NCBI GenBank assembly: GCA_009773155.1 | Contig: WOVA01000027.1 | Span: 1-32,572, forward strand | Source: Elusimicrobiota bacterium | GTDB taxonomy: Bacteria; Elusimicrobiota; Elusimicrobia; Elusimicrobiales; UBA9959 | Length of the DNA: 32,572 nt | Direction of reading: 5' to 3' | Part shown: in pieces, positions 17,635-25,017 of the stretch | Numbering within the stretch: position 1 is the first letter of the stretch | How the letters are laid out: the number at the start of each line of letters is the position of its first letter | Notes under the pieces: model-generated | Database searches by the model: none | Told to the model about the DNA's origin: nothing | Seen by the model: the letters and a program-made list of their open reading frames with translations, nothing else | Program-made: the position numbers and the translations under genes

Positions 17635-18150
17635 CTGCCCGCCAGACTGACCAATAGCAAATCCTTCTGGGCCGCCTCGGCCCTGCTGGGCCTTTTGATC
17701 CTGGCCGCCGCGGCCTGGTCGCTCTATGAACGCGTAAGCCTCTATTTCAGCGAAGACACCATAAGCGTCTCGCCAAAACCCGTACCCCTTCCGAAGTTCG
17801 AAGAAGAAGAAGAGGGGGAGAAGGCGCCGGCGGAGAAGCCCGCCGCCAGGGCGCCCGAACAGAAAACCGCCCCGGCCTCCGACAAGCCCGCGGCGGCCGA
17901 AGCGCCCGCCAGGACCAAGGCCGTAAAGACTTCTTTCGAATACAAGGGACCCGGGAAATCGGTCACCCTGGCCGGCAGTTTCAGCGTCTGGCGCGAGCTG
18001 AAGATGACCCGGAAGAACGGCTCCTGGCTGGCGGAAGTCTATATATTGCCGGGCACCTACACCTACCATTTCACCGTGGACGGCAAAAAAGCGGCCGACC
18101 CGGGCAAGCCCAAGGCCCCCACCGGGGACTCCATAGTGACCGTGGAATAA
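17635..18150 (+). CDS. Membrane-anchored protein with CBM48/AMPK glycogen-binding-like domain
   Basis: About 171 residues if initiated at CTG 17635. There is no ATG or GTG in frame near the start, and a TAA closes the frame at 17620-17622. AAGGA at 17621-17625 sits nine bases before CTG 17635. TTG 17695 is an alternative but would remove half the anchor. Residues about 10-30 form one membrane helix, followed by an acidic then Lys/Pro/Ala-rich linker (about 45-98). The C-terminal domain (about 99-171) has the AMPK-beta/CBM48 pattern V-T-L-A-G-S-F-x-x-W with G-T-Y-T-Y-H-F-x-V-D-G-K near the end. Such domains bind glycogen-like glucans or serve as protein-interaction modules. No glycogen enzymes are adjacent. 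Confidence 0.7.
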   Translation: MPARLTNSKSFWAASALLGLLILAAAAWSLYERVSLYFSEDTISVSPKPVPLPKFEEEEEGEKAPAEKPAARAPEQKTAPASDKPAAAEAPARTKAVKTSFEYKGPGKSVTLAGSFSVWRELKMTRKNGSWLAEVYILPGTYTYHFTVDGKKAADPGKPKAPTGDSIVTVE

Positions 18151-18220: not shown

Positions 18221-21200
18221 ATGAATTTCAGGAAAATCCTGGCCCTCTCACTGCTGGCCCCGGCCTTTTTGGCCGCGGGCGCGGCCGCGCTTGACACACC
18301 CACCCATAATCACGCGGTCACGCTGCTGGCCGACGGCAATATACTGGTGACCGGCGGCCGCACGGCGGTCAATATCGTCTCCGCCAGGGTCGAGATGTAC
18401 AATATGGCGACCAACCTCTGGGTGAATATGGCGGCGCTCTCCGTGCCCAGGTCGTCCCATACAGCCACGCTGATGTCCGACGGCCGCGTCCTGATAGCCG
18501 GCGGCTTCACGGGCGCCGGAACGCCCACCAGCAGCATCGAGATCTACGATCCCAAGAACGGGAGCCTGGCCGGCGGGGGGACGCTGACCCCGGCCCGCGG
18601 CGGCCACACCGCCACGCTGCTGACGGCCGGAACCCGCGCCGGAGAGGTGCTGATCTGCGGCGGCCAGTCCGGCGGCGCGACCACGATAACCCCTACCTGC
18701 GATTACGTCAGCATCACCGGCGCGGTGACCGACGGCCCCTCCATGGTCAGCGCGCGCGTCGGCCACGCGGCGACCCTGCTCCATTCCGGCCGGGTCTTCG
18801 TAAGCGGAGGCCGGCTCTGGAACGGTTCCGCCTGGGTCTACGAAGCGATGAACGAAATGTACGACCCCGCCGCCGGGAGCTGGACGCCGGTGGACTCGCT
18901 GAACCAGGGCAGGACTGACCATACCGTCACCGTGCTCAATAACGGCAAGATAATGATAGCGGGCGGCTACAACGCCACCAACAGGCTCCGCTGTATGTAC
19001 GCCGAGAACAGCCTTGAGGAAGATTGCTGGCACAGCTACAATCCGCTGGCCGCCATAGCCCAGAACGCCGGCAACCGGGGGTACCTGGACGGCGCCGAGT
19101 TCTTCGATCAGAACGGCGCCCGCGTCACGCTGATGGAAGACACCTTCAACCTGATGCCCTACAGGACCTCCCGCCATACCGCCGTCCTGGAAACCGACGG
19201 GCGCTGGCGCGCGCACCGCGGTTACGGCAATATCTACCCCACTTTCTTCACCAACAGCCCGACCCTGGCCGATACCGGGACGATAATACGCCTCGACACC
19301 GTCGCCGGGAGCAGCACCACGGCGACGGTCAGGCCGGACAGCGCCATAAATTTCCCGCTGGCGTTCAAGCTGGTCAGGCCGGTCTCGGGCAGACTGGTGG
19401 ACGCCGACCTCTTCATCTCCTCCCCGCCCAGCGCCGGGACGCCGTCCATCACCATAGCGAACGCGCAGTTCTCCCTGGGCCAGAGCACGGCCATAGCCGA
19501 CGGCAGGGCGGTCGGCAGGCTGCTCGGCGCCGGCTACGCTCCGGGCGACTTTAACGCCGTGGTATCGCTGAACAACCCGGCCGGCTCCGCCGTCTTCGAG
19601 CCGGTCACCGTGGACATAGCAGCCGGTACGCAGGGCAATACCGTCTCTTCCAGTTTTAGCGGGGCTGCCATCTACCCGACAGACGTAGGCGCGCTCTACA
19701 ACACCTCCACCATGACGGTGAACGTATCCTTCCAGCTTTCCGACGTCTACCGCTCCCGCGTCCGGGGAGCGGCGACCATAAGCTCGGCGACCCTGGCACA
19801 TACCGATTACACCATCAACCTCAACGGCGGCGTCGCCACTTTCAACTTTCCGGCCGGCGCCTGCAACGACACCGACGACGTCTGCACTTTCTCGGGCAAC
19901 CTCTATTTCCCCGCGTTAACGGGAACGCTGACGAACCTGACCGCTCTGGCGGGCGGCACGACTTTCTTCCACGCTGCCCAGTCTCCCCCGGCATACCGGG
20001 CCCCGATGAATGTCGGCGCCAGGCCCATCGAAATGACGCTGCGGCTGGATTTCACCGCAGACGAAGTCCACATCCGGGACAAGAACGCGACCTATTCTTT
20101 CGACCGGTCCACGGCGGTGATACGGGGGATGCTCTTCTCCAACCACCTGGCCTACAGCCCGCAGGATAACCGCTGGTCGGATCTTTCCAATATCGAGCTG
20201 GCCGGCCTGCACTCCGTCCCGTCTTTCGACCACACCGCGACCTACACGCCGGCCGCGGACACCCTGCTGCTGGGCGGCCGCAACTGCGAGACGGCGACAC
20301 CCCTCGTTCAGTGCGCGCGCCCCGGGACCTTCACTCCCAACACCGCCGATTACGGCCTCATCCCCGTGGTGGAGGGGAACTGGGCCACGGGCCCCAAGCT
20401 GGGCTCCAGGCGCGCCTTCCATTCCAGCACGCTGCTGCCCGACGGCAGGATACTCACCTGCGGCGGCACGGACGGCGCCAGCCCGCTCTCCACCTGCGAA
20501 CTGCTCGACCCGGCCACCAACAAGTGGGGGGCCACGGGCGGCATGAACTCGCACCGGGCCAATCACACGGCGACCCTGCTGCCCAACGGCCAGGTCCTGG
20601 CGGCCGGCGGCATAACGCCGGGCGGGACGGCCGTGGCCTCGGCCGAGATCTATTATCCCGATACGCGGACCTGGGTGCCTACCGGCTCCATGAGCAGCGT
20701 CCGGCAGCTGCACACCGCCACGCTGATGCCCGACGGCAATGTGCTGGTAACCGGCGGGGCGTCGATCAGCACCTATTCCGCCACGGCCGAGATATATATA
20801 ACCTCGGCCGCGCACTGGGCGGCCGGGGGGACCCTGGTCACGGGCAGGTCCCAGCATACCGCCACGCTGCTCAAGAGCGGCCTGGTCCTCATCGCCGGCG
20901 GCATAAACGGATCGGGCGCGATAGCCGCCGCCGAGCTGTATAACTACCTGACCCGCACCTCGCTCGCGACCGCGACCCCCATGTTTTCTCCCCGCTACAA
21001 CCATACCGCCAACCTGCTGCGCGACGGCAGGGTGCTGATTGCCGGCGGTTCGGACGGCATACAGAGCTCCAGGCGCACCGAGCTCTATACCGCAGCTGGG
21101 ACCTGGGTCGAGACCGCCCTGCTCAACCTCAACCGCGCCAGCCACCGCACCGTCCTGCTGCCCAACGGCAAGGTGATGCTCACCGGCGGCGAGATCTCCG

Positions 21201-23968
21201 GCGTAGTCCAGTCCATGCCGGAAAGCTTCGACCCGGACCTGCCCTCCTGGAGCGGGCAGGGGTCGGCCGAACCCCGCTCCCGCCACACCTCCGTACTCAC
21301 CCGGGACAACAGGATAATCAACATAGGCGGCTGGAACGGCGGCCAGTACCTCGACACTACCGAGTACACGGACTTCAATTTCTGGCCCGATTCGCGGGGG
21401 CTTACGGCCGGCACCACCCGCCAGCCGCTTATCTCCACCGGCACGGCCATGTTCGACCATGGCTGGCGGGCGACCCTGCTCAGCAATACCTCCAACTTCC
21501 ACGGCATAACCGAGGCGGCCGGCGGCGGCGCCGGGGCCATGACCTCCTCGCATTCCAACCCGCGCGTCTACATGCAGCAGATAGACAATCCCGGCGGCTT
21601 CATGATAGACCTCTCCACCCGCATCTACTCCCTTTACGGCGGCCCCAATACGGTCTGGAGCAGGACGCTTTCCTCCATAACGGTGATAACGCCCTCTCTC
21701 CCCAACGAAATGCCGCGCGGCTGGTATCATATGCGCGTGGCGGCCAACGGCGTCTTCTCCAACGGTTTCACCGTGCAGGTCTCTACGCCCAGGCCCGCCG
21801 GGCGGCCGGCCTTCGTCGAACCCAATGGCGTCGTACAGGGGATAAGTTCCATAACCTGGACCTGGAACAAGGGCGACGTCAACGCCGCGGACGGCTTCGC
21901 CGTATATTCGGCCAGCAACAGCGTCTTTATAACCACCGTGGCCTTCGTCGATCCGGGGGATGTCTTCTATACCCAGACCGGCCTGGCGCCAAACACCCCT
22001 GCCTCTATAATGGTCTCGGCCTATAACCAGGGCGGCCACAGCGGGCTCACCAGATCGGGCACCTTCTACACGCTGGCCGCCCCGCCGGCGAACCTGACGA
22101 TAACCGACGTCAGCTTCGAGACGGTCACGCTCGCCTGGAGCGCCAACGGCAACAGCTCCCTCACCCGCTACGAACTGAGCATGAGTACGAGCTCCAACTT
22201 CTCCATCAACATCTCCACGCCGGTCAGCTTCGACGACGGCTTCACCTCCACGACCTATACCGTGACGGGCATAGAGCCCAACAACCTCTACTACTTCCGC
22301 GTACGGGCCCGCAACGGCGACGGGACAGTTACTCTTTCCACCCCGGCCGCTCCGCCCTACATCTCCACGGTGACCGTGGCGCAGGTGCAGAGCCTGCAGG
22401 GCACCCCGCTCAGCGGCTACCAGATAAGCTGGTCCTGGGTGGAATCGGTCGGCGCGGATTACTACGAGATTTACGATATCAGTTCCGGGACGGACACCGC
22501 GGTCCTTATAAGTTCCCCGGTTTACGTCGCCGGCTACACACAGACCGGCCTCTCCACGAACACGGTACACCAGGTCATGGCCTACGCCGTAAAGACGACG
22601 GGCTACGGCCCCGTAAGGGGCTCCCCCGGCTACTCTCCCTGGATCTATACCCTGGCCAACCCGCCCGCGCCCTGGAGCTTCACCGGCGTCAGCACCAACA
22701 CCATAACTCTTAGATGGCTGGCCAACGGCAACCCGTCCTATACCGACTACGTGATAAATCACTCGCTCCATCCGGATTTCGCGGTCTTCACCAGCTCCCC
22801 GGTCCTCGCCGCCACCAGCTACCCGCTCGGCTCCCTGGTCCCGAACACTGTTTATTACGCCAGGGTCTACGCCCTAAACGGCAACGGCGTCCCCACGGCC
22901 GCGGTGAGCCTGGGCTCCAAATACACGCACGCCCAGCCGCCGACAGGCGTGACGACGGCGGAGATAGCGATGTCCGGCGTGACGCTGACCTGGAACCAGG
23001 GGAGAAATCCTTTACCCACCTACTACGAAGTACGCGGCAGCACCAATAATTTCGTCGACGTCTCCACCCATGTCCTCTTCGCCCAGTACTTCTCCGGGAA
23101 CACGGTCACGGTCACGGGCCTGCTCACCTCCACCACCTACCAGTTCGACGTGGCGGCAAAGAACGGCGAGAACGTGATAACGGCCCGGACCAGAGTGGTC
23201 CCGGACGTCTTCACGCTGGCCGGCCCCGCAGGGACGCCCTCCGGCGCGGTAGGCGGCACCGGCGTGCCGGGCGTCACCTCGGTCATCGCGGGCACGCTCC
23301 CCAACGGCCACAGTGTCTCCATGACCATCCCTCCGGCCGCTTTCCAGGCGGAAACGGCCGTAGCCATCTCCTCTCGTAACCTCAGCGTCATCTCGTCCAC
23401 CGACAACCCCTGCGGCGTGGACCGCAACACGCTCCCGGTGCTGGCCGTGGACATATACAGCGAAGGGGGAACTCAGCCTTTCGAACCGGTTTCGTTCACG
23501 ATAGGCTACGGGAACATGTCCTCCGTCCAGAGATCACAGATAAACCAGAACATCTCCAAACTTGTCTGGGCCAGGTACAACCCGGTCAACGGCCAGTGCC
23601 TGCCCCTGGAGACCAGCGTTAACACCGGGAACAGGACCATCACCGCCTCCCTCAACCACTTCAGCATCTTCCAGTTGATAATCAAGGACGCGGCCACGAA
23701 CCTGTCCGGCGTCCTGATCTATCCCAACCCCTTCTACCCCAACAGGGGACAGGGCTTCGTAACGCTGACGAATCTGCCGGCGGCCGCGAATATCAAGATC
23801 TACACGCTCTCCGGCACCAAGGTATGGGAAGGCACTGCCACCGGCTCCGGCGTGCTGATCTGGCGCGGCGTCAACGAGAGCGGTAATCCCGTAGGCAGCG
23901 GCGTCTATTTCGTGTCGGTCAAATCGACGGGGGGAGACAAGATCTTCAAGCTGGCGGTGGAGAGATGA
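18221..23968 (+). CDS. Giant secreted kelch-repeat / fibronectin-III-like protein with FlgD/T9SS-like C-terminal domain
   Basis: 1915 residues. Signal peptide 1-23. Kelch-type repeats (H-T-A-T-L-L-x-D-G-x-V-L-x-x-G-G, then E-x-Y-D/N-P) fill about 25-330 and 660-1070, with a different beta-rich insert at about 340-650. They should form one or two beta-propellers. About five Fn3-like units run from about 1187 to 1666, joined by a recurring Y-T-L-A-x-P-P linker. A beta domain with I-P-P-A-A-F (about 1670-1820) follows. The last ~90 residues hold the I-Y-P-N-P-F motif and G-N-x-V-x-S-G-V-Y-F end strand of FlgD-Ig/type-IX-sorting-like modules. The role is probably surface binding or adhesion. The stop overlaps the PorV-like gene by 4 nt. 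The start lacks a Shine-Dalgarno. Confidence 0.88.
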   Translation: MNFRKILALSLLAPAFLAAGAAALDTPTHNHAVTLLADGNILVTGGRTAVNIVSARVEMYNMATNLWVNMAALSVPRSSHTATLMSDGRVLIAGGFTGAGTPTSSIEIYDPKNGSLAGGGTLTPARGGHTATLLTAGTRAGEVLICGGQSGGATTITPTCDYVSITGAVTDGPSMVSARVGHAATLLHSGRVFVSGGRLWNGSAWVYEAMNEMYDPAAGSWTPVDSLNQGRTDHTVTVLNNGKIMIAGGYNATNRLRCMYAENSLEEDCWHSYNPLAAIAQNAGNRGYLDGAEFFDQNGARVTLMEDTFNLMPYRTSRHTAVLETDGRWRAHRGYGNIYPTFFTNSPTLADTGTIIRLDTVAGSSTTATVRPDSAINFPLAFKLVRPVSGRLVDADLFISSPPSAGTPSITIANAQFSLGQSTAIADGRAVGRLLGAGYAPGDFNAVVSLNNPAGSAVFEPVTVDIAAGTQGNTVSSSFSGAAIYPTDVGALYNTSTMTVNVSFQLSDVYRSRVRGAATISSATLAHTDYTINLNGGVATFNFPAGACNDTDDVCTFSGNLYFPALTGTLTNLTALAGGTTFFHAAQSPPAYRAPMNVGARPIEMTLRLDFTADEVHIRDKNATYSFDRSTAVIRGMLFSNHLAYSPQDNRWSDLSNIELAGLHSVPSFDHTATYTPAADTLLLGGRNCETATPLVQCARPGTFTPNTADYGLIPVVEGNWATGPKLGSRRAFHSSTLLPDGRILTCGGTDGASPLSTCELLDPATNKWGATGGMNSHRANHTATLLPNGQVLAAGGITPGGTAVASAEIYYPDTRTWVPTGSMSSVRQLHTATLMPDGNVLVTGGASISTYSATAEIYITSAAHWAAGGTLVTGRSQHTATLLKSGLVLIAGGINGSGAIAAAELYNYLTRTSLATATPMFSPRYNHTANLLRDGRVLIAGGSDGIQSSRRTELYTAAGTWVETALLNLNRASHRTVLLPNGKVMLTGGEISGVVQSMPESFDPDLPSWSGQGSAEPRSRHTSVLTRDNRIINIGGWNGGQYLDTTEYTDFNFWPDSRGLTAGTTRQPLISTGTAMFDHGWRATLLSNTSNFHGITEAAGGGAGAMTSSHSNPRVYMQQIDNPGGFMIDLSTRIYSLYGGPNTVWSRTLSSITVITPSLPNEMPRGWYHMRVAANGVFSNGFTVQVSTPRPAGRPAFVEPNGVVQGISSITWTWNKGDVNAADGFAVYSASNSVFITTVAFVDPGDVFYTQTGLAPNTPASIMVSAYNQGGHSGLTRSGTFYTLAAPPANLTITDVSFETVTLAWSANGNSSLTRYELSMSTSSNFSINISTPVSFDDGFTSTTYTVTGIEPNNLYYFRVRARNGDGTVTLSTPAAPPYISTVTVAQVQSLQGTPLSGYQISWSWVESVGADYYEIYDISSGTDTAVLISSPVYVAGYTQTGLSTNTVHQVMAYAVKTTGYGPVRGSPGYSPWIYTLANPPAPWSFTGVSTNTITLRWLANGNPSYTDYVINHSLHPDFAVFTSSPVLAATSYPLGSLVPNTVYYARVYALNGNGVPTAAVSLGSKYTHAQPPTGVTTAEIAMSGVTLTWNQGRNPLPTYYEVRGSTNNFVDVSTHVLFAQYFSGNTVTVTGLLTSTTYQFDVAAKNGENVITARTRVVPDVFTLAGPAGTPSGAVGGTGVPGVTSVIAGTLPNGHSVSMTIPPAAFQAETAVAISSRNLSVISSTDNPCGVDRNTLPVLAVDIYSEGGTQPFEPVSFTIGYGNMSSVQRSQINQNISKLVWARYNPVNGQCLPLETSVNTGNRTITASLNHFSIFQLIIKDAATNLSGVLIYPNPFYPNRGQGFVTLTNLPAAANIKIYTLSGTKVWEGTATGSGVLIWRGVNESGNPVGSGVYFVSVKSTGGDKIFKLAVER

Positions 23969-25017
23969 ACAGGCCCGCGCCCATCAGCCTTAAGGCGTCC
24001 TCCGCCCTGCTGGCGGCGGCCCTGCTGATCTGCGCGGCGCCCATCCCGGCGCCGGCCGCGGACTATTTCACCTCCAAGGCGGCGGGCATGACCTCCGCCG
24101 ACTTCCTCAACCTCCCCGTCGGCGCCCGCGCCGCTGCCATGGGCGGAGCCTACTCGGCCATAAGCGAAGAGGCCTCGGCCATCTACTGGAACCCGGCGGG
24201 CCTGGTGCAGATACCCAAGCTCTCGGCGGTATTCATGCGCTCCCAGTACGTGGCCGACACCAGCTACCAGTACGCCGCCTACGCGCACCGCCTCGGCTTC
24301 GACTCGGTGGTGGGCGGCTCGGTCTTCATGACCGACATCGGCGCCATAGACCAGACGGACATCTCGGGCACCCGGATCGGCTCCTTCACTCCCCGTGACC
24401 AGGTCTACACCCTCTCCTACAGCAAGGCCGTGCTCGAATTCTCGGACAAGGACATGGACGTCTCCATCGGCGTCTCGGGCCGGTACATCTCGTCGAGGAT
24501 ACTCAATACCGCCAAGTCCTACTCCGCCGACATAGGAGTGATGACCTATAACTTCACGGCCATCCCCTACAGGCTGGGCGTGGCGCTGACCAATCTGGGC
24601 AACGGCCTGAAGTACGACACGGAGTCCTCCCCGATCCCGCTCACGCTGCGCCTGGGCGGCGCGGTAAACCCCTTCCGCAATATGCTGGTCTCGGCCGACG
24701 CCGTGTTCCCCAAGGGCAATGAGCCCTATCTGTGCTTCGGCGGAGAGCTCTCCACCGAACCCAACGAGCTCACACGCCTCTCGCTGCGCGCCGGCCTCAA
24801 CACCGCCAGGCTGCGCGACGACCTCAGCGGCTTCTCGCTGGGCGCGGGCGCCACGCTGCACTTTTTCAGCCTGGACTACGCCTTCATCCCGCTGGGAGAG
24901 CTCGGCACGACCCACAACCTCTCCCTGACCTTCGACTTCCCGTTCCGCAGCCCCATCTTCCAGCGCCGGGACCGCTCTATCTTCACCAGGGTCCAGGACA
25001 TCTCCATAAAACAGTGA
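23965..25017 (+). CDS. PorV/PorQ-like (UPF0164) outer-membrane beta-barrel protein
   Basis: 350 residues. Signal peptide to about residue 32 (Ala-rich, ending P-A-P-A-A). The mature N-terminus is the PorV-family hallmark: A-D-F-L-N-L-P-V-G-A-R-A-A-A-M-G-G-A-Y-S and, shortly after, E-A-S-A-I-Y-W-N-P-A-G-L. Alternating beta-strand segments follow to an amphipathic C-terminal strand region. In Bacteroidota, PorV carries cargo with C-terminal sorting domains from the type IX translocon to the attachment complex. Many other phyla have relatives with less certain roles. ATGA overlap with the giant kelch gene couples their translation and suggests they work together. No other type IX components lie in this window. 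Confidence 0.85.
   Translation: MNRPAPISLKASSALLAAALLICAAPIPAPAADYFTSKAAGMTSADFLNLPVGARAAAMGGAYSAISEEASAIYWNPAGLVQIPKLSAVFMRSQYVADTSYQYAAYAHRLGFDSVVGGSVFMTDIGAIDQTDISGTRIGSFTPRDQVYTLSYSKAVLEFSDKDMDVSIGVSGRYISSRILNTAKSYSADIGVMTYNFTAIPYRLGVALTNLGNGLKYDTESSPIPLTLRLGGAVNPFRNMLVSADAVFPKGNEPYLCFGGELSTEPNELTRLSLRAGLNTARLRDDLSGFSLGAGATLHFFSLDYAFIPLGELGTTHNLSLTFDFPFRSPIFQRRDRSIFTRVQDISIKQ

Follow-up and report, generated by a model that had tools for sequence, protein, structure and literature searches.

In the type IX secretion system (T9SS) of Flavobacterium johnsoniae, the outer-membrane protein PorV covers the opening in the side of SprA and, inside the pore, holds the C-terminal sorting domain (CTD) of the cargo (PMC10994853). 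Export of type A CTDs in Bacteroidota requires a glycine in the β3-β4 loop and a lysine in the last strand (PMC11285876, PMC10994853). For type B cargo, the gene of the cognate barrel lies directly downstream (PMC12618676), and in Bacteroidota the uncleaved CTDs stay on this PorP-like barrel, a proposed anchor (PMC9143113). The system has been described as restricted to Bacteroidetes (PMC4793230), as exclusive to Bacteroidota (PMC12618676), or as a trait of the Fibrobacteres-Chlorobi-Bacteroidetes (FCB) phyla that other phyla lack (PMC11285876). No report joining Elusimicrobiota with T9SS, PorV or SprA was found in the literature, with subscription papers and preprints outside the coverage. 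Here we describe two overlapping genes in a 32,572-nucleotide contig (WOVA01000027.1, hereafter the window) of an Elusimicrobiota bacterium (assembly GCA_009773155.1). Their products are likely to be a cargo and a carrier of its own within a divergent type-IX-like export route of this phylum. The features of the pair are as follows.

18221-23968, + strand: cargo open reading frame (ORF), a 1915-amino-acid kelch/Fn3 protein with a type A-like CTD (ORF, Pfam, TIGR04183)
18287-18979, + strand: kelch beta-propeller region 1, residues 23-253 (PF24981/PF13418)
20411-21331, + strand: kelch region 2, residues 731-1037 (PF24681/PF13964)
21788-23260, + strand: Fn3 region with three fn3 matches, residues about 1190-1680, limits approximate (PF00041)
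23717-23965, + strand: CTD, residues 1833-1915 (TIGR04183, alignment A2, column conservation)
23965-23968, + strand: ATGA stop/start overlap
23965-25017, + strand: 350-amino-acid ORF of a PorV-family outer-membrane barrel, the proposed dedicated carrier or anchor (NF033709, PF19572)
24091-24939, + strand: PorV_fam domain match, barrel residues 43-325 (NF033709)

The overlap is four nucleotides long: the barrel ATG starts at 23965 and the TGA stop of the cargo occupies 23966-23968. The cargo begins with a Sec signal peptide, as judged by eye, and its Pfam matches are kelch (PF13418, 5e-54) and three fn3 domains (PF00041, 4e-30). Its residues 1833-1913 match the type A T9SS sorting domain TIGR04183 with 35.4 bits (curated cut-off 23) and with 40 bits in the genome-wide search. 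This CTD has a YPNP start, the glycine of the β3-β4 loop, the lysine of the last strand and a KLAVER end. Scores for Por_Secre_tail (14.3 bits) and CHU_C (16.7 bits) were both under the Pfam cut-off of 27.

The barrel matched PorV_fam (NF033709, the PorV/PorQ family) with 160 bits (cut-off 90) and Pfam PorV (PF19572) with 31.5 bits (cut-off 27). It scored slightly under the cut-off of the UPF0164 model and failed the narrow equivalog T9SS_OM_PorV (74 against 250 bits). A phmmer search against the PDB gave a weak match to PorV alone (6h3i_F, E = 0.31). An AlphaFold model of this barrel, made without an alignment, had a predicted local distance difference test (pLDDT) score of 32 and was not used. 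The first-pass annotation of this DNA had proposed a 1915-residue secreted protein ending in a T9SS-like module, with its stop codon overlapping the start of a PorV-type gene; both proposals agree with these matches.

We considered an ordinary internal immunoglobulin (Ig) repeat for the last 90 residues of the cargo and rejected it because the matches, including that of the lineage CTD profile, extend to the stop codon. A sorting domain would also be compatible with an Ig-like fold, because the CTDs of Bacteroidota are themselves Ig-like sandwiches (PMC11285876). Residues from about 1680 to 1825 form a pre-CTD module that ends in an HFSxFQxM-like motif and is common to several cargos (L027, L030 and L031; by eye).

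The window is contig C53 of its genome (G000; 2.76 Mb, 93 contigs, rated 100% complete), which was read as targeted stretches around profile matches. Profile searches found 14 PorV-like genes and 14 CTD proteins there. Eleven of the 14 PorV-like genes lie next to a CTD gene of the same orientation: C53 (the window), C2, C34 (two pairs), C17, C49 (two), C50, C27, C85 and C66. One of the two C49 pairs has the barrel gene first. The window pair is thus one of about eleven, and dedicated barrels are the rule in this genome. Similar C-termini, which the first-pass annotation had wanted to see elsewhere in the genome, occur in 13 further proteins. Its idea of a dedicated barrel for this cargo gains from the repeated pairing.

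The C50 barrel gene lies downstream of an 8413-codon open frame (L032/L033), so CTD proteins can be enormous; frames of 17613, 17343 and 13077 codons occur in relatives (G028:C11:39363, G037:C6:90173 and G030:C6:189635). Several barrels have C-terminal extensions, with TPR repeats (C50, C66), a LysM motif (C35) or a long TPR-like tail (C49). The extended barrels are at L032:8574-10184, L031:9422-11257, L039:7222-9432 and L040:7866-9197. Anchoring to the cell wall or to a partner is a possible role of these extensions.

The pairing extends through the phylum. PorV_fam and the A2 CTD profile each matched in all 17 other Elusimicrobiota genomes searched. For at least 72 of the 150 PorV genes listed in these relatives, a same-strand CTD ends 72-686 bp upstream, where 0.36 such pairs are expected by chance. 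Among the matches listed, one PorV has a CTD downstream and none has a CTD encoded within 900 bp on the opposite strand. An upstream CTD was present at 23 of 30 PorV-centred loci that we inspected directly, and the numbers of PorV and CTD genes per genome were correlated (Spearman 0.96). The adjacency is far beyond chance.

These results bear on the simplest alternative, that the two genes are ordinary neighbours by chance, one for a protein with an Ig-like repeat at its C-terminus and the other for a FadL-like transporter. PorV belongs to the FadL-like barrels, and the CTD weakly resembles the Ig-like domain of FlgD (PF13860, 16.5 bits). Chance neighbours would not, however, occur at about 200 times the chance frequency across the genomes of relatives. 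Nor would they account for the position of the CTD matches at the very C-terminus, at most one residue from the stop in 14 of 14 proteins of the own genome (alignment A2) and at most three residues from the C-terminus in 47 of 57 proteins of the relatives. We regard this explanation as very improbable.

Distances between CTDs were correlated with distances between their barrels, both over the 11 pairs of the own genome (r = 0.48, P = 0.002) and within genomes (r = 0.65, P = 5e-4; r = 0.57, P = 0.011 without the own genome). The pairs therefore evolve as units. This co-variation is compatible with binding specificity and is no proof of it.

The kind of CTD also follows the kind of barrel at one locus. 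The C66 barrel passes Pfam PorP_SprF (PF11751; 36.2 bits, cut-off 22.3), and the CTDs adjoining it are CHU_C/type B-like, under the cut-off. A CTD of the CHU_C/type B kind at C34 passes PF13585 (32.8 bits, cut-off 27). The window pair fails the type B test (a TIGR04131 CTD with PorP/SprF), its CTD being type A and its barrel PorV_fam. The glycine of the β3-β4 loop is kept in 41 of 44 elusimicrobial CTDs and the lysine of the last strand (β7) in 40 of 44, the correspondence of these columns to Bacteroidota CTDs being judged by position and context.

A second alternative accepts export through a SprA-like pore and takes the PorV-like barrels to be interchangeable, so that the operon pairing merely balances expression. 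A single PorV handles every type A CTD in F. johnsoniae (PMC12618676), and the orphan CTDs at C15 and C27 must either be served by some barrel or not be exported. On the other side, interchangeable carriers need neither one barrel per cargo nor the co-variation of barrel and CTD within a genome, and type B-like CTDs adjoin a PorP-like barrel. We think this alternative rather unlikely, and clearly less so than chance neighbours.

By TIGR04189, homologues of SprA were found in 56 of 60 genomes of the phylum (E down to 5e-23), none of the matches reaching the curated cut-off of 200 bits. The own genome has a single-copy gene for a protein of 1804 amino acids (C10, L048:8414-13828). Pfam SprA_N (PF14349) had no match in this genome and missed the homologue, so that a search with Pfam alone would have led to the wrong conclusion that SprA is absent.

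We aligned 21 of the homologues (alignment A1, 36% mean identity). Against 177,635 PDB sequences, the sole match of the A1 profile was Flavobacterium SprA (E = 4e-33), aligned over three colinear stretches that were each significant. A family profile was needed for this result, as phmmer with a single SprA-like sequence found no match in the PDB. An AlphaFold model was made from 38 sequences for the C-terminal 1200 residues of the homologue of the Elusimicrobiales metagenome-assembled genome Ess09-09 (pLDDT 85.8; predicted template modelling score, pTM, 0.48). In a fold search with this predicted structure, the top matches were the four SprA entries (E = 6.5e-41 to 5.5e-34), the next entry having 1.5e-5. 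Ess09-09 is the nearest named relative by the SprA-like protein (89% identity) among the best 80 loci of the scan, which are labelled Elusimicrobiota or bacterial bins.

The first-pass annotation had allowed for a lineage without a classical type IX machine. On the TIGR04189, PDB profile and fold search results we rejected the idea that the lineage has no type IX translocon at all, and the own genome does hold a further type IX component; PorU, GldL, GldM and GldN were not detected there. The distribution of CTDs largely agrees with that of the pore. CTDs were present in 22 of 22 SprA-positive genomes tested, while the SprA-less genomes G008, G017 and G050 had zero CTDs and no more than two PorV matches, which were weak. 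These three amount to about two independent losses, because G017 and G050 are one genus.

The third alternative is that the cargo exits by another route, such as type II secretion, with the barrel as a surface anchor alone and the SprA-like protein in, for example, envelope biogenesis. The SprA-like gene is divergent beside an LptF/LptG pair (PF03739; L048:6148-8408 in the own genome) in 43 of 77 loci (L071-L150), which would fit this alternative, as would the failure to detect a motor and a sortase. Under it one would not expect CTDs to occur in every SprA-positive genome tested and to be gone from three of the four genomes that lack SprA, or the residues needed for T9SS export to be conserved in the CTDs. 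We consider it improbable.

Several observations weigh against reading the two genes as cargo and carrier of a type-IX-like route. The sequence homology to SprA is mainly over the first two thirds and far under the NCBI cut-off, and the structural model represents a truncated homologue of a relative, at the pTM given above. The SprA-less genome G048 has seven CTDs; this assembly is split into 110 contigs, whose ends truncate PorV matches, and its SprA gene may be missing through an assembly gap. In the own genome, no CTD gene lies beside three of the 14 PorV-like genes (C54, C51 and C35). Three CTDs have no same-strand PorV beside them: one at C15, in a subtilisin-like protease by domain match, one at C27:27743 and one at C66 that is divergent from the pair of that locus. 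Duplication of whole operons could yield the same co-variation of barrel and CTD. The binding of cargo to barrel and the secretion itself are what we infer from sequences.

The remaining points on this side concern the sortase, the motor and the ring. The PorU sortase (Peptidase_C25) had no match in the own genome and was absent from 40 of 41 genomes of the phylum. GldL was not found in the own genome with a profile that had no true positive control. GldM had no match over the cut-off in 41 genomes and three sub-threshold matches, again with no true positive control. GldN/PorN was found in none of the 41 genomes with a model that matched nowhere, controls included. The absence of motor and ring is provisional, because none of the 14 control genomes clearly bears a T9SS and SprA itself is far diverged; divergent motor homologues could have been missed. 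Since GldL, GldM and GldN were not found, we assign no energy source to the route. The sole genome with Peptidase_C25 matches (PorU/gingipain-like), G006, has them at C83:8486 and C55:15182 (L069, L070); they could be real or contaminants of this 260-contig assembly.

For the cargo-carrier pair, we propose the following mechanism. The cargo would enter the periplasm by Sec, and its CTD would be the sorting signal for passage through the single-copy SprA-like giant barrel encoded at C10. The PorV-family barrel, translated from the mRNA of the cargo, would close the lateral side of this pore, bind the CTD and carry the cargo out. As no PorU-type sortase was found, the CTD is probably uncleaved, and the cargo probably remains attached to its own barrel at the surface. 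Such retention would explain the one-to-one encoding: a carrier that cannot be unloaded would be needed once per cargo, and coupled genes would supply it. By analogy, we infer that the anchor logic of uncleaved type B cargo may apply to the type A-like pairs here. The earlier suggestion of a cargo/shuttle pair in a type-IX-like route is thus backed by the genome-wide evidence, with binding and secretion as its conjectural parts.

The best reading of the Elusimicrobiota route is a divergent variant that works like the T9SS. Both have a giant barrel homologous to SprA, PorV-family barrels and type A CTDs with the conserved glycine and lysine. In contrast to the Bacteroidota system, the phylum is outside the FCB group, SprA is shorter (about 1800 residues against about 2400), PorU is all but missing, GldL, GldM and GldN were not detected, and many PorV paralogues, most of them beside a cargo gene, take the place of one general PorV. 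We do not class the route as a canonical T9SS, because PorU was looked for and not found.

SprB-SprF of F. johnsoniae (type B) is similar in having the shuttle gene directly 3′ of the cargo gene and in having orphan cargos (PMC12618676, PMC9143113), and its barrel is likewise proposed to anchor uncleaved cargo. Unlike SprB-SprF, most pairs here combine a PorV-family barrel with a type A-like CTD, and C66 alone has a PorP_SprF-matching barrel with CHU_C-like CTDs. The barrels also score on the PorQ model (up to 119 bits) and the CTDs on the PorZ C-terminus, all under the cut-offs. This is a likeness to the PorQ/PorZ/PorU attachment complex, from which the lack of PorU sets the route apart.

The gene 5′ of the cargo (17695-18150) encodes a protein with a glycogen-binding AMPK1_CBM domain. 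The SprA-like gene precedes a ComF-like/double zinc ribbon gene in 38 of 77 loci. A dispersed palindrome close to GGGGACACCATGCGGCATGGTGTCCCC has 14 matches in 303 kb, one just before the SprA-like gene; its sites include window:32406, L048:8399, L032:2112 and 6775, and L041:3374. An ORF at C2:47154-47822 (L027) resembles a REP-associated tyrosine transposase, by eye.

A broader reading, to which we would give not quite an even chance, is that of a phylum-wide ancestral type-IX-like route outside FCB. It would have a SprA-type pore but neither PorU nor the GldLM motor, and most cargos would be paired, translationally or operonically, with a private PorV-like carrier that is also their permanent anchor. 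If true, the presence of a SprA-type translocon throughout Elusimicrobiota would place the origin of the T9SS outside FCB or point to an ancient transfer. The route would also offer a reduced system, possibly without the known motor and sortase, for asking what a translocon minimally needs, and dozens of natural carrier/signal pairs for reading the recognition code.
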